A DNA stretch of 64,000 nucleotides from Streptomyces sp. NBC_00162 (lineage in GTDB: Bacteria > Actinomycetota > Actinomycetes > Streptomycetales > Streptomycetaceae): assembly GCF_024611995.1 (NCBI RefSeq), contig NZ_CP102510.1, positions 248,001 through 312,000 of the forward strand, written 5' to 3'. Of this stretch, positions 6,001-59,079 are shown in pieces. A program made the position numbers and the translations under genes. A model generated the notes under the pieces. The model searched no databases. It worked only from the letters and a program-made list of their open reading frames with translations, and had not been told where the DNA came from. How positions within the stretch are numbered: the stretch's first letter is position 1; each line of letters begins with the position of its first letter.

Positions 6001-9000
6001 TCACCGACGGCTGGTCGCTGTCCCTGCTGCTGAACGAGCTGTACGAGACGTACCGGGCCCTCGCCGGGCAGCAGCCCCTCGAGCTGCCGGAGGTCCGCTA
6101 CCACCTCGGCGACTACGCGCGGTGGGAGAAGCAGGCCGTTGAGCAGGGCGCCTTCGAGCGCTCGCTCGCGTACTTCGCGTCCGAACTGGAGGGAGCCCAG
6201 CGTCTGGAACTCCCCGCCCGGGACACCGCCGAGAACGACCGGGGCGACCAGGGTGACCGTGACGACCGTGACGACCGGGGCGGCGCCGTGCACTTCACCG
6301 TGCCTGCGGAGCTCCGGGCCGCTCTGGACGAGCTGGCCGCACGCAATTCCGTCACCGGGTACACCGTGTACGTCAGCGCCTTCGCGGTGCTGCTCGCCCG
6401 GTACACCGACCAGTACGACTTCAGCATCGGCACGATCTGGTCGGCGAGGGAGCTGCCGCAGGTCGCGGAGACCTTCGGATTCCTGGCGAACACCCTGCCG
6501 CTGCGCTGCGACCTGACCGGGGCGGTGTCCTTCGAGGACGTCCTCGCCCGCACGCACACCCGTGTGCGCGGGGTGTTCGAGCACCAGAGCGTCCCGCTGA
6601 CCGAGGTCGTGCGCGTCGCCGGCGGTGACCGGACCGGCGAGGAGAACCCGCTGTTCCGGGCGGTGTTCAACTACGGCGGCGCGGCCTTCCCCACGATCGG
6701 CACGGGCGAGGAGGCCTGGCGGCTTCCCACCACGGGCAGCGTGTCCGGCAACGTCCGGGGCGCGTCGAAGTTCGAGCTGGGCCTCACCCTGACCGCCGAC
6801 GGCGGGGTGCTGCGCGGGGAGCTGGAGTTCCAGTCGCACGTGCTGGACCGGGACTCGGCCGACCGGATGGCCGCCAACTTCGAGACCCTGCTGGCCTCGC
6901 TGGCCGAGCGGCCCGCCCGTCCGGTCCGCGAGAGCGAACTGCTCTGCGGTGCGGAACGCCGCTGGCTCGCCGAGCACGGCGGCGACGTCGCGGCCCGGCC
7001 CGCCGGCGAGACCGCGTTCCAGCGGATCCTGGAACAGGCGGCACGGACCCCCGACGCGGTGGCCGTGGTGTCGGACGGACACGAGCTGACCTACCGGGAG
7101 GTGTCCGCGCGAGCCCGCGCGATCGCCCGGCGGCTCGCCGCACTGGGCGTGACCCGTGGCGACCTGGTCGGCCTCTGCCTTCCCCGCACGGCCGATCTGC
7201 CGGTGGCGATGCTCGGCACCTGGATGGCCGGGGCCGCCTACGTTCCGCTGGACCCGGCGTACCCGAAGGCGCGTCTGGACCATGTGGTGTCCGACAGCGG
7301 CCTCGGGGTGGTGATCTCGGCCGGCTCCCTCGCGGACGTCCTGCCGGACGGCCCGCGCGTGCTGTCCGTCGAGGAGATCACCGAGGAGGTCGCCGAGGAG
7401 ACCGCCGAGGAGACCGCCGAGGACGGGCACCACGGACAGCAGCCGGCCTCGGCTGTGCCGGTCCGACCGGAACCGTCCGACCCCGCCTACGTCATCTACA
7501 CCTCGGGCTCGACGGGCACCCCGAAGGGCGTGGTGGTCGAACACGCGCAGTTCGCCGCCTTCTGCCTGGCCATGGACGACCGCGTCGGCGGTGGCGCCGA
7601 CGGCACCTGGCTCGCCGTGACCAGCGTGTCCTTCGACATCTCCGGCCTCGAACTGCTGTGGACCCTGACCAGGGGCCACCGCGTGGTCGTCGCCGGCGGA
7701 GAACTCGGCGCCTGGGCCGGATACCGGCAGTACGGGCCGACGCACCTGCAGTGCACGCCGTCACTGGCCAGGATGCTGCTGGCGGACGCGGAAGGCCGTG
7801 AGCTGCTCGGCGGGCTGCGGCTGCTCCTGGTCGGTGGCGAAGCGCTCGACCGCGGGCTGGCCGACCGGCTGCTGCGGACCTGCGGCGGCGACGTGCTCAA
7901 CATGTACGGGCCCACGGAGACCACCGTCTGGTCGACGACCTGGCGCGTCGAGCCCGGCCCGGTTTCGCTGGGATCGCCCGTCCTCGACACCCGGCTGGCC
8001 GTGCTCGACCGGCACCGGCAGCCGGTACCGCGCGGCTGCCGCGGTGAGCTGTGGATCGGCGGGCGCGGTGTCGCGCGGGGCTACTGGGACCGGGCCGCGC
8101 TGACCGACGAGCGGTTCGTGGCGGACCCCTACGAGGGCGCGGGGCGGATGTACCGCACCGGGGACGTCGTCCGCTACCGCGAGGACGGCTCACTGGAGTA
8201 CTGCGGCCGCGTGGACAGCCAGGTGAAGCTGGCCGGACACCGCATCGAGCTCGGCGAGATCGAGTCCGTGGTCGCCGGCTGCGCCGGCGTGCGGGAAGTC
8301 GCGGCGGTCGTACGCGAGGACGCCGGCCCGGCGGCCCTGTGGGTGTACTACTCCGGGGACGCCGGCCGGCAGGTCCTGGCCGAGCACGCCGCGGCGCGGC
8401 TGCCGGTGTCGATGCTGCCCGCGCGGTGGATCCGGCAGGACAGCCTGCCGCTGACACCGAACCGCAAGATCGACCGGCTGGCGCTGGCCGCACTGCCCGC
8501 GCCGCGGCCGGAGCCCGCGCAACCGGCCGCCGAGGGCGACCGGGTGTGGGACGCGGTGGTCTCGGCCTGGTCGCAGGTACTGGACCTGGCCGAAGTGGAC
8601 CCGGACCGCGGCTTCTTCGAACTGGGCGGAACGTCGATGGCGGCGCTGCGGGTCCACGAGCGGCTCTGCGCCGCCCTGGACCGCGAGTTCCCGCTCGCGA
8701 CGCTGTTCCGCTACTCCACGGTCCGGCAGCTCACCGCGTTCCTGCGCGGCGACACCACGCGCACGGTGACCGCGGCCGCGACGTACCGGCAGCGTCCGGA
8801 CGAGGACGCGGTGGCGATCGTCGGCGTGGCCCTGCGCCTGCCCGGTGCCAATGACGCGGACGAGTTCTGGGCGAACCTGCGCGGCGGAGTCGAGTCGATC
8901 CGCCGCTTCACCGAGCGGGAACTGCTCGACGCCGGGATACCCAGGAGCGTGCTGGAGGACCCCGGCTTCGTCCCGGCCAAGGGGTACGTGCAGGACGCCG

Positions 9001-12000
9001 ATCTCTTCGACGCCGAGTTCTTCCGATGCTCTCCGTCCGAAGCGGAGAACATGGATCCGCAGCACCGCCTCTTCCTGGAGACGGCCTGGCAGGGCCTGGA
9101 GGACGCCGGCATCCTGCCCGGCGCCGACCCCGGCCGCATCGGGGTCTTCGGCGGAGTCGGCTTCGGCGGCTACGACCAGGGCGATTCCGAGGACGCCTCG
9201 GAGGTCTTCCGCTCGGCGATCGGCAACAAGAACGACTTCCTCGCGACCCGCCTGGCGCACAAGCTGAACCTGCGCGGACCCGCGCTGACCGTGCAGACGG
9301 CGTGCTCCACGGGTCTGGTCGCCACGCACCTGGCCCGGCAGAGCCTGCTGCGCGGAGAGTCAGACGTGGCCCTCGTCGGCGCCTCCGCACTCACCTTCCC
9401 CCTGGAACAGGGCTATCAGTACCAGGAAGGCTTCGTGGCCTCGCCGGACGGACACTGCCGGCCCTTCGACGCCGACGGCGCGGGCACGGTCCTCGCCAAC
9501 GGTGTGGTGGCGGTGGTGTTGCGTCGGCTGTCGGACGCGGTCGAGGCAGGAGACCGGATCTACGCGGTCATCCGCGGCAGCGCCATCAACAACGACGGCT
9601 CCGACAAGGTCGGATTCACCGCGCCCAGCGTGAACGGCCAGGCCACCGTCATCACCGACGCGCTCGCCGACGCCGGACTGTCGTCCGCCGACATCGGCTA
9701 CGTCGAAGCACACGGCACCGCCACCGCCATGGGCGATCCCATCGAGATCCAGGCCCTCCAGGAGGTCTTCACCCCCGACCGCGACGAGCCCTGCGCCGTC
9801 GGATCGGTGAAGTCGAACATCGGCCACACCGACGTGGCCGCAGGCCTGGCGGGGCTGGTCAAGGCGGCGCTGTGCGTCTACCACGGCGAGCTGGTGCCCA
9901 CGGTCAACTTCCAGCGTGTCAACCCCGAACTCGGCCTGGACCCGGCCGTCCTGCGGATCAGCGACGACACACGGGCCTGGGCGGGCACCCGACGGGCCGG
10001 AGTGTCCTCGTTCGGCATCGGCGGCACCAACGCCCACCTGGTCCTGGAACAGCCGCCCCAGCCCGCCGCGCAGCCCGCCCCGGCACGCGCCGCGGCGCCC
10101 GTGGTCGTCTCCGGACGGACCCCGCAGGCACTCCGGGACCAGGCCGGCCGGTGGGCCCAGTGGCTCACCGAACACCCCGACACCACCCTCACCGACCTGG
10201 CCTGGACCACCACCCGGCACCGCGAACACTTCGCCGAACGCGCGTCGGTGGCCGGATCCGACCTGACCGCGGTCATCGAAGGACTGACCGCCATCGCCCA
10301 CGACCGGCCGGACGCGTCGGTCACCCTCGCCACCGCACGGCCGGGCAAGGTCGTCTTCGTCTTCCCCGGCCAGGGTTCGCAGTGGCCGGGCATGGCCCGG
10401 CGCCTGCTCACCGAAAGCCCGGCCTTCGCCGACACGGTCGCCCGCTGCGACGAGGCACTGCGCCCCTGGACCGGCTGGTCGGTCCGCGAACTGCTCCAGG
10501 ACGAGGACCGCATCGCCTGGGACCGCCTGGACATCGCCCAGCCGGTGCTGTTCACCATGTACCTCGGCCTGGCGGCGGCCATGCGGGAGCTGGGCCTGGA
10601 AGCCCAGGCCGTCGTCGGACACAGCCAGGGCGAGATCCCCGCGGCCGTGGTCTCCGGCGCCCTGACCCTGGACGAAGGCGCCAGGATCGTCGCCGCACGC
10701 AGCACGGCCCTCGCCGCGCTGGACTCGGACGGCGAGATGGCGACGGTGGAGCTCCCCGTCTCCGAGGTCGAGACGGCACTGGCTCCGCACGGGGACGCCG
10801 TCTCGGTCGCCGTGGTGAACACACCGGGATCCACGGTCATCTCCGGAGACCGGGCGGTCGTCGAAGAGCTGCTCTACGCGTGGGACGACCAGGACGTGTG
10901 GTGCGGCAAGCTGAACACCTCCTGCGCGTCCCACAGTTCGCACATGGACGCACTGCTGCCGGGCCTGCGGGACCGCCTCGCCCCGCTGCGCCCCCGCCCG
11001 ACCGGCATCCCGCTGTACTCCACCGTGCTGGGCCGGCGGGCCTCGGGCGAGGAACTGGACGCCGCCTACTGGTGCCGGAACCTGCGCGAACCCGTACGGC
11101 TCGACCTCGCCCAGCAACAGCTGCTCGCCGACGGGTACACGGTGTTCGTCGAGGTCAGCCCGCATCCCGTGCTGGCCATGCCACTGGCCGACGGCGGCGC
11201 GGACCGGGACGCGGTGGTCCTGGCGGCCATGGAACGAGACCAAGGCGGCCTGGACCGGCTCCAGCGCACCCTGGGCGCGCTGCACGCGCACGGTGTCGGG
11301 ATCGACTGGCCGGCGGCCGTCCCCGACGGCCGCATGGTCGGCCTGCCCGGCTACGCCTTCCAGCGGCAGCGCCACTGGAAGGAACCCGCCCGCCGCAAGA
11401 CGACCGACCAGCGGTTCTGGGACGCCGTCGGGGCGGGCGAGGCCGACGCGCTCGCCGAGCTGCTCGGCGCGTCCGGGCAGCACCGGGACAGCGTCATGGA
11501 CCTGCTGCCGCTGCTCCGGCGCTGGCACCAGGGCCGCGACGACCACGCCGGGATCGCCGACTGGCTGTACGAGGAGACCTGGCAGCCCGCCGAACCCGCC
11601 CCGGCACCGGCGGACGGGGTCTGGGCCGTCCTCGGGGACCCCGCGTCACCCGCCGCGGAGCTGGTGGCGGCTCTCGGCGAGGCGGGCGCCGCCGCGCACC
11701 GGGCCGGCACGGACCCGGGTGACCTCGCCTCCCTGCCGGCGGAGCTCCAGGGCGTGATCGTCCTGACGCCGCCGGACGAGGACGGCACGCGGCACGGATT
11801 CCTCCGGACCGTACGACTGCTGCAGGAACTCGGAACGAGCCACCCCAGGACTCCGGTGTGGCTGGTCACCAGGGGCGCCGTCGGCGTGGACGCGGCCGAT
11901 CCGGTCACGCGTCCCGAGCAGGCCCTGCTCCACGGACTGGGCCGGGTCGCGGCACTGGAACGCCCCGAAGCCTGGGGCGGCATCGCGGACCTGCCCGAAC

Positions 12001-48141: not shown

Positions 48142-48353
48142 GGGGGCATCCCCGCGTGCGCGGGGAGCAGCATCGAGGGTAATTGAATCCGAGCCTACCC
48201 CTGGGGTCATCCCCGCGTGTGCGGGGAGAAGGACATGACCACACATCCCGCGGCCCGGCCGTGGGGGTCATCTCCGCATGCGCGGGGAGCAGGCCGGGTT
48301 GGACCTGTCCGACCCGGCGGCGGCGGGGTCATCCCCGCATGCGCGGGGAGCAG
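48142..48353 (-). CRISPR. CRISPR array 1, type I-E style, 4 repeats
   Basis: 29-nt repeats at 48142, 48203, 48264 and 48325 with three 32-nt spacers. On the minus strand the repeats have the CTGCTCCCCGCG start and GGGGATGAACCC-type end of I-E repeats, so transcription is leftward and the leader is at 48354. The repeats are degenerate (GGGGGCAT, GTGTGCGGGGAGAAG, TCTCCGC variants), suggesting an old or inactive array. Confidence 0.92.
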
Positions 48354-48438
48354 ACTGGCTGACCTGGCACTCTACGACTGCCACAAGCCGTTTTGCAGCA
48401 CTTCCTCAGAATCCGGCAATCCGAACACTGAGACCGCT
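48354..48438 (-). promoter_or_regulatory. CRISPR leader 1
   Basis: 85 nt directly upstream (minus-strand sense) of array 1. Its first 25 nt next to the repeat (ACTGGCTGACCTGGCACTCT + ACGAC) are identical in leaders 2 and 3, and similarity continues through TTTTGCAGCACTTCC and CCGGCAATCCG. Position and conservation mark it as the leader. Confidence 0.8.
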
Positions 48439-48847: not shown

Positions 48848-49519
48848 ATGGCAACAGCATTCACTATCAACGGGGAGTACTTCCCGACGAAAAAGGCTGC
48901 GGAGCAGCGGATCCGAGGAATGATCAAGGCTTACCGCTTCGGCTCCCAGGTCAGCGCCCAAGACGACGAGTTCCTGCGGGACCTGATCACTCGACATCCC
49001 GACCACGAGGACAAGGCGGGGACGGGAGTCGCCGGCTTCCGAGTAGATCGCTCCGAGTTCGGGAACCGGTGTTTGATGGTGCTCAGGACCGACGGAACCG
49101 AGATCGACATCTCCTGGCCGGAATGCCTCAAGCCGACGAGCCATGCTCAGCAGGTACGTGGCTGCCTGCGGCGAGCGATATCCGATCAAGTCATCGCCAA
49201 GCGAGACGAAGCCTTTGCTGCCGGACCCGTGGTGTGCGAGGTAACGAACCTGGTGATGCTTACGCCGGATGAAGCTGACGTGGACCACGCGGCACCAAAG
49301 TTCAAGGAGCTGGCGGAGACATTCATCCTGCAGCGTGGTGGCTTGGAAGCCTTCGTGATTGCTCCGGACCGCGCGAGTGGGATGTCTTACGCGGAGCTGC
49401 AGGACGACGTCCTGGTGGCAGCCTGGCAGCAGTACCATCGCGAACACGCCACACTGCGGGTGATCACCAAGCATGCGAACCGGTCGGTCCTGCAACGCAA
49501 GGGCCAAGGTGCGGTCTGA
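48848..49519 (+). CDS. DUF3223-like protein
   Basis: 223 residues, ATG at 48848 with GGGGAG 6 nt upstream. The start FTINGEYFPTKKAAEQRIRG and the following FLRDLITRHPDHEDKAG match the DUF3223 (DCL-like) domain, which in bacteria often accompanies HNH nucleases. The C-terminal half (VVCEVTNLVMLTPDEADVDH, then AWQQYHREHATLRVITKHAN) has the VD(H) and KFKELAETF pattern seen downstream of DUF3223 in such proteins. Function unknown. It sits between two CRISPR loci. Confidence 0.75.
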   Translation: MATAFTINGEYFPTKKAAEQRIRGMIKAYRFGSQVSAQDDEFLRDLITRHPDHEDKAGTGVAGFRVDRSEFGNRCLMVLRTDGTEIDISWPECLKPTSHAQQVRGCLRRAISDQVIAKRDEAFAAGPVVCEVTNLVMLTPDEADVDHAAPKFKELAETFILQRGGLEAFVIAPDRASGMSYAELQDDVLVAAWQQYHREHATLRVITKHANRSVLQRKGQGAV

Positions 49520-49733: not shown

Positions 49734-50552
49734 CTAGTGTGCTCCGCTGCAGAGGAGAATCCCTCCCAGGCAGGTGATGCGGAACGCGCCTTTTGCCTGG
49801 ACGGTCTCTTCAACTCGTTCTCGGGCACGCGCGATCGTCTCCTTGAAGGGGACGCCCATTTTGTCGGCCCATGCCTCGTACGAAGCCAGGTGGGCGACCA
49901 CGGGCTCCGGGTCGGTCACCTCGACTACTCCGGGAAGAGGAATCGTCCGTACGTCCTCAAAGACGGCGCCGAGGATTGTCGGGGCGTCCTCCAGGGTGAA
50001 GCGGGCGGAGAGCTGGACGCGTGCTGGGCCCTCGGGAATGCCGAGGACGTCGCCAGCGGCTCGTCGCCAGAGGTCTTCCAGTTCGCGCTTGTCGGTACGG
50101 CTGTTGGTGGACGCGATTGCGATGCCGCCCTTGGCTAGTACTCGGCCTAGCTCTCGGACGGCGCGTGCCTGGTCCTCCACGTGGTACAGCATGTGCATGG
50201 CGAGGACGGCGCCCAGGGCCCTGTCCACGATGGGGAGCTGCTGGACGTCCGCGGCCACGGCACCGGCGATGCCTGCCAGGATCCCGGGGGAGACATCCAT
50301 GGGGAGGACAGTCAGGTCCGGCCGCTGGGTGCGTATCCGCTGCACGAACTTGCCGTTTCCGCAGCCCACGTCAGCTACCGCGCCGCGTACGCGGGCCAGC
50401 TCTTCCACGACGAGGCCGGGCAAGTCGTGCCGCGGGGTCTGCCACTGGTAGAGGGACTGGCGGGCTGCCAGGTGCCGGCCGGTGCCGTACGCCTGGGTGG
50501 AGAGGAGGTGCCGGTCGGTGACCGAGGGCTCGTTCGAGGGCTGGGTGCTCAT
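49734..50552 (-). CDS. Class I SAM-dependent methyltransferase
   Basis: 272 residues. SAM-binding motif I is VRGAVADVGCGNGKFVQRIR; motif II/III regions are QQLPIVDRALGAVLAMHMLY and RAVRELGRVLAKGGIAIAST. The fold and length fit UbiE/MenG-like small-molecule methyltransferases. The ATG overlaps the stop of the XRE/TPR regulator by 4 nt, so the two are translated together. It may act on the product of the divergent peptide cluster. Confidence 0.9.
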   Translation of the reverse strand: MSTQPSNEPSVTDRHLLSTQAYGTGRHLAARQSLYQWQTPRHDLPGLVVEELARVRGAVADVGCGNGKFVQRIRTQRPDLTVLPMDVSPGILAGIAGAVAADVQQLPIVDRALGAVLAMHMLYHVEDQARAVRELGRVLAKGGIAIASTNSRTDKRELEDLWRRAAGDVLGIPEGPARVQLSARFTLEDAPTILGAVFEDVRTIPLPGVVEVTDPEPVVAHLASYEAWADKMGVPFKETIARARERVEETVQAKGAFRITCLGGILLCSGAH

Positions 50553-51868
50553 CGCGGCTCCGTGGGTGTGCTGACGATCGTCGGCCGGGAGGTGACCTCG
50601 TGGATGTGTTCACGGAGATCGACTACCGGCCGCGAGTCACGGTACGGCCCGCTGGCGATGAGTGTGTCCAGTTTGCGGAGCCTGATGGTGATGCTCGCCG
50701 TGTACTGCTCCGCCCCGAGGACCGTGTCGAGTTCCGCACCGGCCACGTCCACCTGGCCGTTCGCGAGGTAGGCGGTGGCCAGGTCCAGGTGCGCGGCGTG
50801 CAGGTCGCCAGGGGAGCGGTCGTCTTCTGGCCCTGTCTGGTAGAGCTCCACCGCGCGGGTGGAGGCTGTGATCGACCGCTGGACCTGTTCGTCACCGCCA
50901 ACGGCCAGCAGCGTGGTGCCTGTATAGGCCCATTGCTTGGCCTCGGGGAAGGCGAACACCCCTGGCAGCTCATCCAGGTCGGCGATGGCACGAGCCTCAT
51001 GGGCAAGGGCGAGGGAGCGCAGCGCGCTGCGCCCGTCTCCGCCGGCCGCGAGGGCCCGAGCTTCCAGGCTCAGCAGTCGTGCCGTGATCGTCCCGGAGCC
51101 CGGGCCCCGGCCATCCTCGTATCCGGCCCTCGCAAGGTCTGCGGCCCGCCGGTAGTCCCCTGTCCAGTACGAGGCCAGTGACTGGAAGGAGCGGGCCCAG
51201 GCTCGCAGCCTCGGGTGTTCCGCGATCTCGGCGCACTGCACCACGGTCCGGGCATGGGTGGCAGCCGAGGGCTGGTGACCGAGGTCGAGGGAGACGTGCG
51301 CCGCGAGGCCGGAAAGCCATCCGGCGACGACGTACAGGTGCCGGGTCTGGTGTGGATGCTGGCGGCCCTCGACCAAGCGGAACACCTCGGTGCGCAGGGT
51401 GCGGATCTCAGGGATCAGCAGGGTCAGCGGCTGGCTGACGAAGTCCCTTGCGAGGCGTTCTAAATCGGCGTCGAGCTGCTCCAGGACCAGGGCGTTGACG
51501 TTGGTGGCGGCAGCGTGTCGAGCGAGCCGGGCCGATAGCTCTGCGTCCGCGATGATGCTGCGCGCATCGTCTGCGGGCGCTGGGGAAGTGCCGAGCGTGC
51601 GTGGTGTTCCTGAGTGTGGGGTCGCCCCCTTCGGGTGCAAACCCAGCACTGCCTCGTTGTCGACTTGGAACACCGCGCACAGAGCTGCCCGGTAGTCGCC
51701 GGAGGGCCAGGTGATCGCTCCGCGTTCCAGCCGGGAGATCCAGTTCGCATCGAGCCCGGGGTCGCGGCCGGTGGTCGCTCGGACTTGGGCGCAGACCTGC
51801 TCCGCTGCCTGTGCCTGAGTCCACCGGCGCTCGTTTCTGAACCTGCGCAGGGCCTCGTTCGCCATCAT
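50549..51868 (-). CDS. XRE-family regulator with TPR-like sensing domain
   Basis: 439 residues. The N-terminal HTH is ALRRFRNERRWTQAQAAEQV, then DANWISRLERGAITWPSGDY. The rest is helical repeat (LYVVAGWLSGLAAHVSLDLG, YWTGDYRRAADLARAGYEDG, DLHAAHLDLATAYLANGQVD), like Rgg/PlcR-type or Streptomyces XRE-TPR regulators that may sense peptides. It overlaps the methyltransferase and is divergent from the peptide cluster; three 11-bp-spaced GCCTA repeats lie between. Confidence 0.9.
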   Translation of the reverse strand: MMANEALRRFRNERRWTQAQAAEQVCAQVRATTGRDPGLDANWISRLERGAITWPSGDYRAALCAVFQVDNEAVLGLHPKGATPHSGTPRTLGTSPAPADDARSIIADAELSARLARHAAATNVNALVLEQLDADLERLARDFVSQPLTLLIPEIRTLRTEVFRLVEGRQHPHQTRHLYVVAGWLSGLAAHVSLDLGHQPSAATHARTVVQCAEIAEHPRLRAWARSFQSLASYWTGDYRRAADLARAGYEDGRGPGSGTITARLLSLEARALAAGGDGRSALRSLALAHEARAIADLDELPGVFAFPEAKQWAYTGTTLLAVGGDEQVQRSITASTRAVELYQTGPEDDRSPGDLHAAHLDLATAYLANGQVDVAGAELDTVLGAEQYTASITIRLRKLDTLIASGPYRDSRPVVDLREHIHEVTSRPTIVSTPTEPR

Positions 51869-51917
51869 CCCGCCGTCCGCTGGTCGAGTCGGGCGCCCGG
51901 AATCCTAGCGGGATTCT

Positions 51918-51946
51918 GCCTAGTTCGTGCCTACAACGTGCCTACA
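51918..51946. promoter_or_regulatory. Three GCCTA iterons at 11-bp spacing
   Basis: GCCTA occurs at 51918, 51929 and 51940, exactly one helical turn apart; the last two are within the direct repeat CGTGCCTACA. They lie in the 156-nt divergent region between the XRE gene and the small-ORF operon, a fitting place for cooperative binding of the regulator. Confidence 0.6.
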
Positions 51947-52024
51947 GGAATGCCCTGTTAGGGGCCCTGGTGGCGGAGTTGACTGAACCCCTGCCCCCGC
52001 TCAGACAGCCCCGGGAGAGCCCCC

Positions 52025-52231
52025 GTGATCACCCACGCAACTCCGGTCCGGCGCGACATCACGTACCACCACGACGACCACCAGGCCACCCTGCCGATCG
52101 AGCTGCACCGCTCTGACGGCACCACCGAAACCACGACCCTGATCCTCGACCCCACCCAGCTGGAGGTTCTGTACGCACAGCTGGACCGGGCGATCGGGAT
52201 GCGCGAGGCGGCTGCGGGGCACTCGGGATGA
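52025..52231 (+). CDS. Small conserved-looking protein, first gene of the peptide cluster
   Basis: 68 residues, starting MITHATPVRRDITYHHDDHQ and continuing TLPIELHRSDGTTETTTLIL, then DPTQLEVLYAQLDRAIGMRE. A beta-rich first half and one helix. No cysteines, no signal. It overlaps the next gene by 4 nt (ATGA). Function unknown; such proteins are seen next to XRE regulators in Streptomyces, as I recall. Confidence 0.65.
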   Translation: MITHATPVRRDITYHHDDHQATLPIELHRSDGTTETTTLILDPTQLEVLYAQLDRAIGMREAAAGHSG

Positions 52232-52593
52232 CGACCACCCCCGCCCCGCAGGCCCGCGTGCAGACGGACATCATTCGTGCCCTGTGTGCCCGTGTCCTCA
52301 CGCCCGACACGTATGGCATACCGGGTGGCGAGGTACGGGCGGCCACGACCCTGCTGTCGGGCCACGTCCGACTGCTGCTCGGCGAGCCGGGCGGTGGTCC
52401 TCAAGCCCGTACGGATGCCGAGCGGCTGCTGGCGCGGGAGCCGGGTGAGGGGCGGCTCGGGGCCTGGATCCACATGCGGGCCCTTGCCCGTGTCTGCCGC
52501 GTACTCCTGATCGAGCACCAGGTGCACCGGAAGCGCGGCGTTGCCGCCGCCGGCCGGGTGCCGCAGGACGTGAACGTGGTGGCGAGGCAGTGA
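52228..52593 (+). CDS. Small helical protein (DUF6415-like)
   Basis: 121 residues, all helical: VQTDIIRALCARVLTPDTYG, GEVRAATTLLSGHVRLLLGE, WIHMRALARVCRVLLIEHQV. The pattern resembles a Streptomyces family called DUF6415 in my memory. It is coupled by 4-nt overlaps to the genes on both sides. Role unknown. Confidence 0.65.
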   Translation: MTTTPAPQARVQTDIIRALCARVLTPDTYGIPGGEVRAATTLLSGHVRLLLGEPGGGPQARTDAERLLAREPGEGRLGAWIHMRALARVCRVLLIEHQVHRKRGVAAAGRVPQDVNVVARQ

Positions 52594-52673
52594 GACAGCG
52601 GATCGCCGTGATCGTCTACGCGATCCTCTGCGGCGCCATCGTGGGCTGTCTCCTGTCGGCCACCGAACACTGA
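52590..52673 (+). CDS. 27-residue membrane peptide
   Basis: GTG start overlapping the previous stop (GTGA). It encodes a basic start (VRQRIA) and one hydrophobic helix (VIVYAILCGAIVGCLLSA) ending TEH. The tight coupling and clean helix suggest a real small membrane peptide. Confidence 0.5.
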   Translation: MRQRIAVIVYAILCGAIVGCLLSATEH

Positions 52674-52749
52674 CCACCCGCCGCTTGTGGCGACGGGGAA
52701 CGGCGGCTGCGTCCGCACCGCCGAGAAACCGAAGTGATGGAGGCACGTC

Positions 52750-52884
52750 ATGAACCGACCCAAGCCCCAGACGAAGCAGAGTACGGCCGTTACCGCGGAG
52801 GCGGTCCGCCGGCTGCAGCAGCGCGTGACGGCGTTCGCCGCCACGGGCACCACCAACAACTCCCCGACCACCTACCACCGGTAG
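52750..52884 (+). CDS. Putative RiPP precursor peptide, 44 residues
   Basis: ATG at 52750 with GGAGG 6 nt upstream, TAG stop. The first ~31 residues are basic and helical (MNRPKPQTKQSTAVTAEAVR, then RLQQRVTAFAA), like a leader peptide. The last 12 (TGTTNNSPTTYHR region) are Thr/Ser/Asn-rich with a terminal Tyr-His-Arg, like a core for modification. It is followed after 96 nt by MBL, APH-fold kinase, VOC and GNAT genes on the same strand. No known RiPP class is recognised, so this is inference from composition and context. Confidence 0.5.
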   Translation: MNRPKPQTKQSTAVTAEAVRRLQQRVTAFAATGTTNNSPTTYHR

Positions 52885-52980
52885 ATCCTGCCGGTCCGCG
52901 AATCGGCGCGGAGGGGGACGTCCGCTGTCCCTCTCCGCGCCACCCTCGTGACCCTTCCCAACCGTGCAAAGGAGTTCGTC

Positions 52981-54480
52981 ATGGCAGCAGCCCCCGTCGG
53001 CCTGGAACTGACCTTCCTTGGCCACCAGACCTGGCACATCACCGACGGCCTCTCCTCCGTCCTCCTCGACCCGATCCTCGCGCCCGCCTTCGGCGCAGGG
53101 AGCCTGGAGTTCGCGATCTGGCCTCCCCGAACCGTGGACACCCAGGGCATGCCCACCCCGAACGCCGTGATCCTCAGCCATGAGCACCTGGACCACTTCC
53201 ACCTGCCCTCCCTCGACCTCCTCGCCCGCACCGTGCCGATCTACACCGGCACCACCACCCCGGCCGCCGTCACCGACGCCATCGAGGCCCTGGGCTTCAC
53301 CATTCACCGCCTGGACCACACACAGCCGCTGAACGTCGGCGACATTGAGATCACCCTCTACCCCGCCAGCGCCCGCACCCTCTTCTGGGAGAAGCGGGTC
53401 TCCCAACCCCTGGTCCGCCTGTCCGGCACCACCGGGAACGACGTCTTCATCGGCGTCGACGCGGACGTCTCCGACCTCTACATCGAGCAGCTGACCCAGG
53501 GCGTACTCGCGCCGCCCCGGCTCGCGGTCGTCTCGAACAATGCCCAGACCGTCCCGTACGGCGCGCTCGGCGCCGACAACAATCTGCTGCCCGGCATGGA
53601 CGGCCCCCGCAACCGCACCACCGGCGTCCAGATCCTCAACGGCCTCCTCATCGACTACCTCAAGCCCCTGGACGGAGTTCGCGACGTCGCCCTGTGCGGC
53701 AACGGCTTCACCGCGCCGCGCAGCCCTCACGGCCCCTTCCTCTACGCCGATCACCAGGCGCTGGCCGCCACCGCAAACGAGCTTCAGCACCTCTTCCGCG
53801 TACACGGCCCCCGTCCCGGTGACCGCCTGACCGTCCCGGCCGACGACGGTCCGCTCACCACCTCCCGCGTCCCTTGGGTTACCCCCGACCCCGTGGCGGA
53901 GCAGAGCGCCCTCGCCGCGCTCGCGTCCTTCCTCGACTCCCCGCAGCGCGTCGAGCCGACCCCGGTCACCCCGGCCCTGGACAAGGAGGAATGGGAGAGC
54001 GCCGACACCCTGGTGGCCGAGGAGCTGCCCCGCCTGGCCCGCGAGCTGATCGCCACCCGCACCGGCGCCCTCGCCAGCAGCATCCACGACTACCTCCACG
54101 GCCCCCTCGGTCCCCACCGCGCCGTACTCCGCCTCCTCGACCCGCCCGGCCGCCCCGGCGACATCGACACCTACGCGTGGAACATCACCGGACCCACATG
54201 GGACAAGGTGGAGACGACCAGCCGCGAGGAAGCCATGGCCGCCTACCCCTTCGGCATCGAGATCTACTTCCAGGACCTGGCCGCCATCTTCCTCGGCCGC
54301 GCCCAGATCTGGGACGTCGTCGGCGGCTCGTACCAGGGCTGGCACATCGGCGAGAACCTCGACTCCCCGGTCTACGCCCTCTTCGCGATCTACGGCGAGC
54401 ACCAGCGGCCCGACCTCGCCGCCCGCTGCTACGCCCACAGCCTCGCCGCGCTCGGAGTCCACCAGGAGAACTCGGCATGA
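52981..54480 (+). CDS. MBL-fold protein with long C-terminal domain
   Basis: 499 residues; the ATG at 52981 has AGGAG 5-7 nt upstream. The N-terminal MBL core has the metal motif VILSHEHLDHFHLPSL and DVFIGVDADVSDLYIE. UlaG/RomA-like, L-ascorbate-lactonase-type MBL. From ~300 on there is an extra helical and mixed domain (ESADTLVAEELPRLARELIA, then WDVVGGSYQGWHIGENLDSP) not typical of MBL enzymes. It overlaps the kinase gene by 4 nt. In the cluster it could hydrolyse or cyclise the peptide; the substrate is unknown. Confidence 0.82.
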   Translation: MAAAPVGLELTFLGHQTWHITDGLSSVLLDPILAPAFGAGSLEFAIWPPRTVDTQGMPTPNAVILSHEHLDHFHLPSLDLLARTVPIYTGTTTPAAVTDAIEALGFTIHRLDHTQPLNVGDIEITLYPASARTLFWEKRVSQPLVRLSGTTGNDVFIGVDADVSDLYIEQLTQGVLAPPRLAVVSNNAQTVPYGALGADNNLLPGMDGPRNRTTGVQILNGLLIDYLKPLDGVRDVALCGNGFTAPRSPHGPFLYADHQALAATANELQHLFRVHGPRPGDRLTVPADDGPLTTSRVPWVTPDPVAEQSALAALASFLDSPQRVEPTPVTPALDKEEWESADTLVAEELPRLARELIATRTGALASSIHDYLHGPLGPHRAVLRLLDPPGRPGDIDTYAWNITGPTWDKVETTSREEAMAAYPFGIEIYFQDLAAIFLGRAQIWDVVGGSYQGWHIGENLDSPVYALFAIYGEHQRPDLAARCYAHSLAALGVHQENSA

Positions 54481-55346
54481 CCACCGCCCCCGCCGGGCCG
54501 CTGGACGGCGCCGCCCGCACACGACCCGACGGGTGGCTGGCCACCCCTCTCACCACCGACCGGGCCACTGCCGAGCGCGAGGCCCACGCCATCCTCGACC
54601 GGCACCACACAGGCGAGCCGGGCCCGGTGTACTGCCTCACCGCCCGCTACCGCACCGCAGTCTTCGCCCTCGGGACACCACCCCGCCGGATTCTCAAGCG
54701 GCACGCGGACGAAGCCGCCTACCAAGGCGAAGTCCTCGCGTACGAACTGCTGGCCGGCGAGCATGTTCTGCCGGACCTGCACCGCGTCTGCGACACCTCC
54801 CGCACCTTGCTCGTCGACTACCTCGGCCAGGCCGTCACCCTCACCAGCACAGACGCGTTCGACGAGCTGATTCGGGCGGTCGCCACGATCCACACGGCCT
54901 CCGCCCGCTGGCATCCGGTGGTCGGCGAGGCCATGGCAAGGTGGCGAACCGGCGCCGCCGTCAACGCACCAGCGCCGCAATGGATCCGCCACGCCGACGA
55001 CTGGCGCCGACTCCTCCAGCTCGTCAGCGATGCCCACGGCCCCGACCACGTGCCCCTCGGACACCTCGACCTCAAACCGGAACACATCCGCCGCCGCGAC
55101 GACGGGCGCCTGACCCTCATCGACGCCGAAACCCTCCGCCCCGACATCACCGGGCTTGCCGACCTCGTCACGCTCGCCTTCATTGCAGGCGACGAGCCCA
55201 AGCTGGCACCCCGCTGGATCCGCCACGCCTACCTGCACCACGTCAACGAACTCGGCGCGCAGTGGAACGACCACAGCCTCGTACACGCCCTGACGGCGTT
55301 CGCCTCCGCCACCGGCCTACGTTCCCTGCACGGCACCCACGAGTGA
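54477..55346 (+). CDS. APH-fold phosphotransferase
   Basis: 289 residues, ATG overlapping the MBL stop. Kinase-like features: RRILKRHADEAAYQGEVLAY (Lys and Glu), the catalytic loop LGHLDLKPEHIRRRDDGRL and the metal Asp in LTLIDAETLRPDITGLADL. The catalytic-loop Asn is replaced by His (KPEH), so activity may be altered. Similar folds phosphorylate antibiotics or, in class V lanthipeptide and thioamitide clusters, Ser/Thr of a precursor before elimination. That comparison is the basis for the RiPP suggestion. Confidence 0.83.
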   Translation: MTTAPAGPLDGAARTRPDGWLATPLTTDRATAEREAHAILDRHHTGEPGPVYCLTARYRTAVFALGTPPRRILKRHADEAAYQGEVLAYELLAGEHVLPDLHRVCDTSRTLLVDYLGQAVTLTSTDAFDELIRAVATIHTASARWHPVVGEAMARWRTGAAVNAPAPQWIRHADDWRRLLQLVSDAHGPDHVPLGHLDLKPEHIRRRDDGRLTLIDAETLRPDITGLADLVTLAFIAGDEPKLAPRWIRHAYLHHVNELGAQWNDHSLVHALTAFASATGLRSLHGTHE

Positions 55347-55395
55347 GCGATACAGCGATACCGTGCCAACTTCCCGACGCATAGGAGAACCCCAA

Positions 55396-55752
55396 GTGCT
55401 GCGCGGTATCCGCACCGTCATGGTCTTCGTCGACGACCCCGAAGCCGCCGCCCGTTGGTGGGGCGACATCTTCGTATCCGAGGTCAAACTCGACATCAAC
55501 GGCACCGCCATCTATGCCTGGCTGGACCTCGACGGACTCGAGTTCGGTTTCCACCAGGCGTCCCCCAAGGCCAACCCCCCCGGTGGAAGCACCGTCCCGT
55601 ACTGGCCCGTCGAAGACCTCGACACCGAACGCAAGCGCCTCCTGGACGCCGGCTGCATCCACCACCGAGGCCCCCTCGACGTGGAAGCCGGCCGACGCAT
55701 CTGCCAGCTCGTCGACCCGTTCGGCACGATCTTCGGACTCGACGGGCCCTGA
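55396..55752 (+). CDS. VOC-family (glyoxalase/bleomycin resistance-like) protein
   Basis: 118 residues from a GTG at 55396 with AGGAG upstream. Two beta-alpha-beta-beta halves: GIRTVMVFVDDPEAAARWWG DIF and the C-terminal GRRICQLVDPFGTIFGLDGP. VOC proteins bind drugs or catalyse metal-dependent isomerisation or lactoylglutathione chemistry. In a biosynthetic cluster it can be a self-resistance binding protein. Confidence 0.87.
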   Translation: MLRGIRTVMVFVDDPEAAARWWGDIFVSEVKLDINGTAIYAWLDLDGLEFGFHQASPKANPPGGSTVPYWPVEDLDTERKRLLDAGCIHHRGPLDVEAGRRICQLVDPFGTIFGLDGP

Positions 55753-55767
55753 CACCGGAGCCTGCCC

Positions 55768-56403
55768 ATGCGCCACTGGCCCATCACCGACCTGGAACTC
55801 GCCACCCCCGACCTGGTTCTACGCCTTCCCTCGGACGCTGAACTCGACGAGCTCGCCCAGGTCGCCGCGGAAGGCGTCGTGCCCGACGGCGCCGTGTTCT
55901 TCCCGCAGCCCTGGGCCTCCGCGCCGCCGGCCGAGCGCGCCAGGAACGTCGTACAGAACCATTGGTGGGCGCGAGGCGACTGGAGCCGCGACAACTGGCG
56001 CCTTCTCCTGGCTGTCTTCCACGACGGCCAGGTCATCGGCCAGCAGAACCTCTCCGCCCGCGACTTCGCCACCACAGGCGAGGCCCGCACGGGCTTCTGG
56101 CTCGGCCGCCGCTTCCAGGGCCACGGCTGCGGCACCCAGATGCGTGCCGCAGCTCTGGCCCTCGCATTCGACGGCCTCGACGCCGCCCGCGTCACCTCGA
56201 CCGCCTTTGAGGACAACGCCGCCTCCCGGGCCGTCTCCCGCAAGTTCGGCTACCGCCCTAACGGCATCCACCGCATCGCCGTCGACGCCCACCCCTACGA
56301 TGCGCACGAGGCCGTTGTCGATGCCGCCAGCTGGCGAGATCAAGCCCAGTTGGTGCCCGTAGCGATCAGAGGCCTCACGGGTGGTATCACGTACTTCCGC
56401 TGA
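55768..56403 (+). CDS. GNAT-family N-acetyltransferase (RimJ/RimL-like)
   Basis: 211 residues. GNAT core: WRLLLAVFHDGQVIGQQNLS, then ARTGFWLGRRFQGHGCGTQM RAAAL (acetyl-CoA site, R/Q-G-H-G-C/G-T) and TSTAFEDNAASRAVSRKFGY. It is the last gene of the cluster before CRISPR array 2, 16 nt after the VOC gene. It could cap or inactivate the product by acetylation. Confidence 0.9.
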   Translation: MRHWPITDLELATPDLVLRLPSDAELDELAQVAAEGVVPDGAVFFPQPWASAPPAERARNVVQNHWWARGDWSRDNWRLLLAVFHDGQVIGQQNLSARDFATTGEARTGFWLGRRFQGHGCGTQMRAAALALAFDGLDAARVTSTAFEDNAASRAVSRKFGYRPNGIHRIAVDAHPYDAHEAVVDAASWRDQAQLVPVAIRGLTGGITYFR

Positions 56404-56588
56404 TCTCCGCACGCGCGCACGATGGCTCGCACACAGCGGACAGCGCCCTCGTTCGGAAAGCGACAGGTTCCGACGATCACCACCTGATCCCTGTCCTCGC
56501 CGCGCAGGCGGAGATGCTCTGACCGTGGTGCCCGCGATGGTGGAGGCCGAGTGCCGTCTACTCCGCGCGAATGCGGCAGATGCACGGC

Positions 56589-57226
56589 GGGTTCATCCCC
56601 GCATGCGCGGGGAGCAGGCCTGCCGGGCGGGCTTGTTGGACGGCCGCCCGGGTTCATCCCCGCGTGCGCGGGGAGCAGTGCACTTTCCCATGGAGGCCCG
56701 CCCAGCCGAGGGGTTCATCCCCGCGTGCGCGGGGAGCAGACCGGACCGCCGTCTTGCAGTGGGCGGAGGATGGGTTCATCCCCGCGTGCGCGGGGAGCAG
56801 CCCGTACCCGGTGGGGTGCGGGCAGGGCCGGGGGTTCATCCCCGCGTGCGCGGGGAGCAGTATCGCAGGGCGAGCATGGGCGTGATCGAGACGGGTTCAT
56901 CCCCGCGTGCGCGGGGAGCAGGTCAGGACACGCTGCATGTGAGCCTTGGCCGTGGGTTCATCCCCGCGTGCGCGGGGAGCAGTTGACGATTTTCACCTTC
57001 AGTCCGCGCAGCATGGGTTCATCCCCGCGTGCGCGGGGAGCAGGCGACCGCGTCATCTTTCTGGCCTTGCCTCTGGGGTTCATCCCCGCGTGCGCGGGGA
57101 GCAGGACATGCGCGCCTGGACCCAGCGCCTGGCCTGGGGTTCATCCCCGCGTGCGCGGGGAGCAGAGGGTCTGGAAGGGGGTGGTGTAGCCGACCTGGGG
57201 TTCATCCCCGCGTGCGCGGGGAGCAG
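56589..57226 (-). CRISPR. CRISPR array 2, type I-E style, 11 repeats
   Basis: 29-nt repeats at 56589, 56650, 56711, 56772, 56832, 56893, 56954, 57015, 57076, 57137 and 57198; ten spacers of 31-32 nt. Ten of eleven repeats share the same core CCCCGCGTGCGCGGGG; the leftmost has CATGC, as expected at the trailer end. Minus-strand sense gives the I-E repeat (CTGCTCCCCGCG... GATGAACCC), with the leader at 57227. This is the best preserved locus. Confidence 0.97.
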
Positions 57227-57312
57227 ACTGGCTGACCTGGCACTCTACGACGGTCACAGGCTGTTTTGCAGCACTTCCTCAGAATCCGGCAATCCGGACA
57301 CCGAGGCTGCTG
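57227..57312 (-). promoter_or_regulatory. CRISPR leader 2
   Basis: 86 nt adjacent to the newest repeat of array 2. The first 25 nt are identical to leaders 1 and 3. It contains TTTTGCAGCACTTCC and CCGGCAATCCGG, conserved with leader 1. Confidence 0.85.
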
Positions 57313-58425: not shown

Positions 58426-58650
58426 CCGTCCTTACGCGCAGCCGTCCATCCACGGCAATGCCAGCGTTATGCCACCGGGAGGAGTCTGGCCCAGGATTTC
58501 TCCGGCGGTTGTTGTCCTTCGGAGAAGGCTGAGGCTGCGGTGCGCGGTGCCCACGCTGGAGCAGACGGAATGCGACATCTGCGCTGGCCTTTGCGGAGGG
58601 TTCAAGCACGGGGAGCCGGCGAACGGCACCGGGACGGTCGAGGTGTAGAT
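58426..58650. other. Intergenic before CRISPR array 3
   Basis: No supported gene. Contains a GGAGAAGGCTGAGGC-type purine-rich stretch but no frame that follows it convincingly. Confidence 0.35.
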
Positions 58651-58911
58651 GGGCTCATCCCCGCGGGAGCGGGGAGCAGGTCAGCGTCGGAAGCACGGGA
58701 TAGTGGAACAAAGGGTCATCCCCACATAGGCGGGGAGCAGACCACGCGTTCAATCGCGCGGTTCAGCTCTTCGGGTTCATCCCCACATGCACGGGGAGCA
58801 GACCTTGCGGGCCGGCATCCGGGGTTCATCCCCGCACGCGCAGGGAGCAGCATCGCAGGCCCTCCGTCCGGGCCGTGTACTCGGGTTCATCCCCGCACGC
58901 GCAGGGAGCAG
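58651..58911 (-). CRISPR. CRISPR array 3, type I-E style, 5 repeats, one short spacer
   Basis: 29-nt repeats at 58651, 58712, 58773, 58822 and 58883. Spacers of 32, 32, 20 and 32 nt (the third, 58802-58821, is shortened). Repeats grow more degenerate to the left (CGGGAGC, CACATAGGC, CACATGCAC), while the two next to the leader are identical, so leader and newest end are on the right and the minus strand is the sense strand. Confidence 0.93.
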
Positions 58912-59005
58912 ACTGGCTGACCTGGCACTCTACGACGGCCACTCGCTGTTTTGCAGCACTTCCCAAGAACCCGGCAATCCGGACAATGCTTCGCTGGGGC
59001 TTCGC
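58912..59005 (-). promoter_or_regulatory. CRISPR leader 3
   Basis: 94 nt next to array 3. The first 25 nt are identical to leaders 1 and 2, the middle (TTTTGCAGCACTTCCCAAGA) similar, and the outer third diverges and is ~9 nt longer. Confidence 0.8.
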
Positions 59006-59034
59006 CGCGTCATCCCCGCATGCGCGAGGAGCAG
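59006..59034 (-). CRISPR. Isolated repeat on far side of leader 3
   Basis: A repeat copy with CATGCGCGAGG in place of CGTGCGCGGGG, 94 nt beyond the array. Together with 48439 and 57313 it shows that each leader is bracketed by repeats. Confidence 0.7.
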
Positions 59035-59079
59035 TCGGCTGGCGACCCTCGCCCGATCCTCCGACCGCCCCACGATGGC

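Follow-up and report, generated by a model that had tools for sequence, protein, structure and literature searches.

A probable RiPP-like gene cluster of Streptomyces sp. NBC_00162 encoding a 44-residue peptide with a conserved Tyr-His tail

We analyzed a 64,000-nucleotide stretch of DNA from Streptomyces sp. NBC_00162 (the window; contig NZ_CP102510.1, positions 248,001 to 312,000), in which a gene for a 44-residue peptide precedes genes for a metallo-β-lactamase (MBL)-fold enzyme and an aminoglycoside phosphotransferase (APH)-fold kinase (Table 1). On the strength of sequence comparisons, we think it likely that the peptide serves as substrate in a pathway resembling those for ribosomally synthesized and post-translationally modified peptides (RiPPs), with the MBL enzyme and the kinase acting on a Tyr-His core; both enzymes probably modify the 44-residue peptide. 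We found that all 23 distinct intact actinobacterial MBL-APH loci have a homologous open reading frame (ORF) of 40 to 50 codons immediately before the MBL gene, and that it ends in YHR, YHH, or YHY in every case. An earlier note on this DNA had proposed that the genes form a compact pathway to a peptide natural product, of a class it did not recognize, and that proposal is supported, as peptide homologues, co-occurrence with the MBL/APH pair, and retention of the peptide frame all hold.

The loci were collected with the MBL family as bait, 21 coming from genome_contigs and four from plasmid records, together with genomes of the genus. Counts out of 23 refer to the distinct actinobacterial loci, the window included, that have both MBL and APH genes, and these represent Streptomyces, Streptantibioticus, Kitasatospora, Actinomadura, Frankia, Pseudofrankia, and Protofrankia. 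Dropped before counting were two decayed copies, L025 (Streptomyces inhibens, 9715-10583, with peptide and MBL frames both broken) and L044 (a Kitasatospora aureofaciens plasmid, with the MBL match in pieces); L026, a partial archaeal match at 25% identity; L045 and L046, which have tandem MBL genes and no APH gene; L048 and L050, duplicates of L006 and L022; and the short copies L027-L040. Wider sampling of 376 Actinomycetota genomes returned only the window's own MBL, a plasmid tblastn search with a Rhizobium MBL homologue returned the same four actinobacterial records and a partial Nostoc hit, and a search of viral_contigs for MBL relatives found none. The close homologues that were fetched are from Streptomyces.

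A search of ∼5.8 billion proteins identified six homologues of the 44-aa peptide, of 44 or 41 aa and all ending in TYHR; the 44-aa query also gave four chance-level matches in 61 genomes. To gauge the ending by chance, we took as a control set the 4,103 stop-ended frames able to hold an ORF of 30 to 70 codons on both strands of 29 fetched loci; only 25 of these end in YH or in YH plus one residue, and every one is the ORF adjoining the MBL gene. Two loci among the 29 are duplicates, which leaves 23 distinct cases, one being a Chlamydiales locus. In an alignment of 22 peptides (A4), M1, V19, Q23, Y42, and H43 are invariant, V26, G33, and P39 are nearly so, and Cys is found in none of the 22. 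The earlier note had expected a conserved leader and a variable core, and the alignment reverses this: the tail and helix are conserved, and the N-terminus varies in both length and sequence. The window ORF differs from five relatives without an indel and with pN/pS values of 0.36 to 0.48, the range across all 15 pairs being 0 to 0.73 on small counts. Every relative with an intact MBL frame has an intact peptide frame too, and the sole frame-broken relative seen with a recognizable peptide is that of S. inhibens, where the MBL gene is broken as well. As judged from these comparisons, the 44-aa ORF is a genuine gene for a ribosomally encoded peptide and is under selection.

The peptide is also linked to the enzyme pair across genomes. 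Searches of 392 Streptomyces genomes matched the MBL in seven and the APH in five, and a peptide profile matched 10 at an E threshold of 0.01, five of them strongly (E of 3.6e-17 or better). The five strong peptide genomes are exactly the five APH genomes, as the predicted co-occurrence would have it; the other five peptide matches are weak (E of 0.002 to 0.009), partial, and inside long frames. Kinship among the Streptomyces genomes means that these co-occurrence counts are not independent events. A divergent regulator gene is present in all 22 actinobacterial loci with upstream sequence available (L016 has <800 bases), and the NCBIfam NsdA_fam_reg cutoff is passed by all nine of these regulators that were scored. 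A VOC homologue is found no more than 3 kb from the start of the MBL gene in 19/23 loci, on the opposite strand in five. The 68-aa and DUF6415 ORFs are absent from L049, in which the regulator sits closer to the peptide gene, so these two ORFs (68 and 121 aa) are probably outside the core. The core is the regulator, peptide, MBL, and kinase genes, usually with the VOC gene. Of the gene set that had been read as one pathway, this core stands, and the small ORFs, methyltransferase, and GNAT genes turn out to be clade-specific (5, 6, and 8 of the 23 loci, respectively). An extra 281-aa gene follows the APH gene in two loci (L042, 10395-11240; L022, 12387-13232), the L042 copy having a subthreshold protein-kinase match.

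The gap between the peptide and MBL genes holds a GC-rich hairpin, which in the window folds at -48.1 kcal/mol (RNAfold; z of -4.0 against 100 shuffles). The stem sequences vary by clade, and z is -2 or lower in 21 of the 25 intervals folded, the weaker ones being L012, L016, and L021 (-1.5 to -1.4) and L024 (+0.5, peptide to HlyD); folded intervals end at the start of the MBL match, and some therefore take in its first codons. A search for a T-tract terminator gave none. The hairpin is most naturally, though not conclusively, read as a read-through attenuator separating precursor from enzyme expression.

Similar arrangements occur in two other phyla, each represented by one genome. In Chlamydiales bacterium 38-26 (L023), a 50-aa ORF ending in SPFSYHY is followed by genes for an MBL, a kinase matching the APH profile at an E of 5.1e-13, and a 951-aa protein weakly similar to ABC ATPases; alignment of the peptide to the actinobacterial profile spans 37 columns (E of 1.7e-4, probability 49.6). 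In Caenimonas koreensis (L024), a 53-aa ORF at 6297-6458, with the C-terminus ...ENVGGGLTYHYQQGPN, begins the order peptide (...GGGLTYHYQQGPN), HlyD, C39-peptidase ABC exporter, MBL, kinase, and histidine phosphatase (Peptidase_C39, E of 1.4e-32; kinase against the APH profile, E of 2.1e-7). No similarity to the other peptides is detectable beyond TYH, so the kinship of the Caenimonas peptide rests on position, motif, and neighbors. It has Gly-Gly-Gly ahead of TYHY, a Gly-Gly site seen in Caenimonas only, and together with the C39-peptidase exporter this adds independent support for a peptide pathway. Two further MBL genomes, G178 and G273 (L046), lack an APH gene and have two MBL genes in tandem, with small upstream ORFs of 46 and 47 aa ending in FKWAYTR and HHHYVR. 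A gene for a P-loop protein comes after the second MBL gene; the G178 protein has a weak shikimate-kinase match, and genes for an Stf0 sulfotransferase and an MFS transporter come next (L045, 8313-15227). A P-loop kinase-like gene may thus stand in place of APH, in keeping with phosphorylation being an essential step.

In the MBL, H67, H69, D71, H72, E137, and D160 are invariant in 24/24 homologues, H275 is present in 12/24, and there is no conserved later His. Its AlphaFold2 model has a pLDDT of 81.6, the VIA list for which covers residues 2 to 303. The C-terminal region of ∼195 aa has no Pfam match in 24 members, and an SCP2-like fold for it, suggested by secondary structure, is only a guess. 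The kinase model (pLDDT 91.5) has Foldseek matches to LicA, MphH, a corramycin kinase, and LxmKY, and K74, E85, D198, H203, and D216 are invariant in 19/19 kinases; no solved structure is related to it by sequence up to an E of 1.

A plausible scheme is that the divergent NsdA-type regulator controls the strongly translated small peptide gene, and that the hairpin would let only part of the transcripts reach the enzyme genes, giving more peptide than enzyme. The helical part of the peptide (VTAEAVRRLQQRVTAFA) may be bound by the enzymes, with the C-terminal tail presenting the reacting Tyr-His. The kinase would phosphorylate the tail or an intermediate, and the MBL, whose site contains three invariant His residues (67, 69, and 72) and invariant carboxylates (D71, E137, and D160), would modify Tyr or His. 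The conserved Tyr does not always have Ser, Thr, or Tyr before it (Frankia has Ala there), which means that a neighboring Ser/Thr is not the shared target of the kinase and leaves as candidates the Tyr, the His, a different residue, or an intermediate. In Caenimonas, cleavage after Gly-Gly by the C39-peptidase exporter would release the tail containing TYHY for export. No recurring exporter or leader peptidase was found in the Actinomycetota loci, and the product of the Streptomyces loci may therefore be small or intracellular.

Known systems share parts of this arrangement. Class V lanthipeptide and thioamitide clusters (LanK/LanY; CaoK/CaoY, LxmK/LxmY, and TvaC/TvaD) likewise have a small Streptomyces precursor beside an APH-fold kinase, and the model and its Foldseek match to LxmKY indicate that the window kinase has that fold. 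CaoK phosphorylates Ser/Thr of its own precursor, and class V kinases are paired with HopA1 lyases (PMC9486802), as also in the spr cluster (PMC7794033). In contrast, the window cluster has a peptide without Cys and an MBL enzyme instead of a lyase: HopA1 (PF17914) was not found in the window genome (G000) or in its relatives G097, G198, and G323, and a fourth relative, G232, has three hits, the nearest ∼85 kb away and none in the cluster. With neither a HopA1 hit in the window genome nor Cys in the peptides, class V lanthipeptide chemistry is a poor match. The pyrroloquinoline quinone (PQQ) pathway offers the closest precedent for MBL action on the Tyr of a ribosomal peptide, pairing a short, conserved, Tyr-containing peptide (PqqA) with MBL-fold PqqB, reportedly an iron-dependent Tyr hydroxylase. 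It differs in that the window cluster has a kinase and a Tyr-His core, and no Pfam match to a radical SAM PqqE or a PqqD partner occurs among the 10 window proteins scanned. Biarylitides are minimal ribosomal peptides with a similar Tyr/His core but are made by a P450, and no P450 was found among the Pfam-scanned window genes.

The MBL has detectable similarity by profile and fold to CmlA and FrsH, which serve nonribosomal assembly lines and which the PDB names a diiron beta-hydroxylase and a diiron monooxygenase. E137 presumably maps onto the CmlA glutamate; the window MBL differs in its extra C-terminal region and in that the last His is not conserved. It is possibly an iron-type enzyme, and an iron-dependent oxidation as in CmlA/FrsH is the likeliest reaction for it, though weakly supported and held with lower confidence than the role of the peptide as a RiPP-like substrate.

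Three other explanations deserve consideration. The peptide could be an unmodified or cleaved signal that the divergent TPR regulator senses, as in RRNPP systems, with the MBL and kinase acting on other molecules. The constant presence of the NsdA-family regulator in the 22 loci is as this would predict, and the C-terminus is conserved, as it often is in mature signals; however, peptide, MBL, and kinase stay together in the Chlamydiales and Caenimonas loci, in which the regulator was not seen, although no regulator-model search was made there, and an unmodified signal needs no invariant linkage between peptide and enzymes. We regard this as improbable. We give about the same low weight, or slightly less, to the idea that the peptide serves as a small subunit or activator for an MBL-kinase pair acting on a small molecule in detoxification or resistance. 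The VOC and GNAT genes would fit such a role, since APH, VOC, and GNAT folds are common in resistance, the structures nearest to the kinase model are antibiotic and small-molecule kinases, and Actinomycetota loci have no conserved exporter. The Caenimonas Gly-Gly-Gly ahead of TYHY, with its C39-peptidase exporter, speaks for a peptide product instead, and the invariant residues concentrate at the C-terminal tail rather than throughout the peptide.

A defense or toxin-antitoxin module of a mobile element would be in keeping with the location of the cluster, since the 388,840-bp replicon is probably a plasmid, relatives are plasmid-borne, the region has CRISPR-like arrays on its flanks, and positions 48848-49519 encode a HamC-like protein. 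Nonetheless, PADLOC has no match for the peptide, MBL, kinase, VOC, or GNAT proteins, and the version in Caenimonas is linked to an exporter; we consider this explanation very unlikely.

Returning to a peptide modified by the enzyme pair, a broader proposal, which we offer tentatively and would place at rather less than even likelihood, is that this is a new RiPP class. An MBL-fold enzyme using O2 and iron, and an APH-fold kinase, would turn the invariant Tyr-His tail found across Actinomycetota, Chlamydiota, and Pseudomonadota into a conserved product of small size, such as a redox cofactor, a signal, or a Tyr-His cross-linked peptide, with G178 and G273 as a sister variant in which two MBL enzymes are accompanied by a P-loop kinase replacing the APH kinase. 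If so, the class would be defined by an enzyme pair that present class rules would miss, would span at least three phyla and often be plasmid-borne, and its short, near-invariant core would suggest a conserved function, not an ever-changing antibiotic. A literature search, with preprints outside its scope and few subscription papers covered, found no description of such a cluster among the titles listed.

Table 1. Features of the cluster region, in window positions
Feature	Position	Strand	Remarks
SAM methyltransferase	49734-50552	-	PF08241; clade-specific accessory gene; 6/23 loci
XRE/TPR regulator, NsdA family, divergent	50549-51868	-	NCBIfam NF053720 NsdA_fam_reg, 130 bits (cutoff 75)
Small ORF, 68 aa	52025-52231	+	Beside cluster in 5/23 loci
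Small ORF, 121 aa, DUF6415	52228-52593	+	Beside cluster in 5/23 loci
Small ORF, 27 aa	52590-52673	+	Tightly coupled to the two preceding small ORFs
Precursor-like peptide, 44 aa	52750-52884	+	C-terminus ...SPTTYHR, the proposed core; GGAGG upstream
Intergenic hairpin, 16-pair stem	52885-52980	+	RNAfold; peptide-MBL gap
MBL-fold metalloenzyme, 499 aa	52981-54480	+	PF13483/PF12706
APH-fold kinase, 289 aa	54477-55346	+	HLDLKPEH; ATGA overlap with MBL gene
VOC-superfamily protein	55396-55752	+	PF00903; frequent accessory gene
GNAT acetyltransferase	55768-56403	+	PF13302; clade-specific accessory gene; 8/23 loci

The gene positions reported previously were all confirmed in the sequence, and the regulator and methyltransferase genes overlap by 4 nucleotides. 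The 9.02-Mb home genome is in two contigs, the cluster lying on the small one (C2 of G000, 388,840 bases), and related clusters are on linear plasmids of 153 to 233 kb. The CRISPR-like arrays are at 48142-48358, 56585-57234, and 58647-59042, with 4, 11, and 6 copies of ∼29-nucleotide repeats at 61-nucleotide spacing, and the gene beside one array encodes a plus-strand DUF3223 protein matching PADLOC HamC models (E of 7.9e-39).

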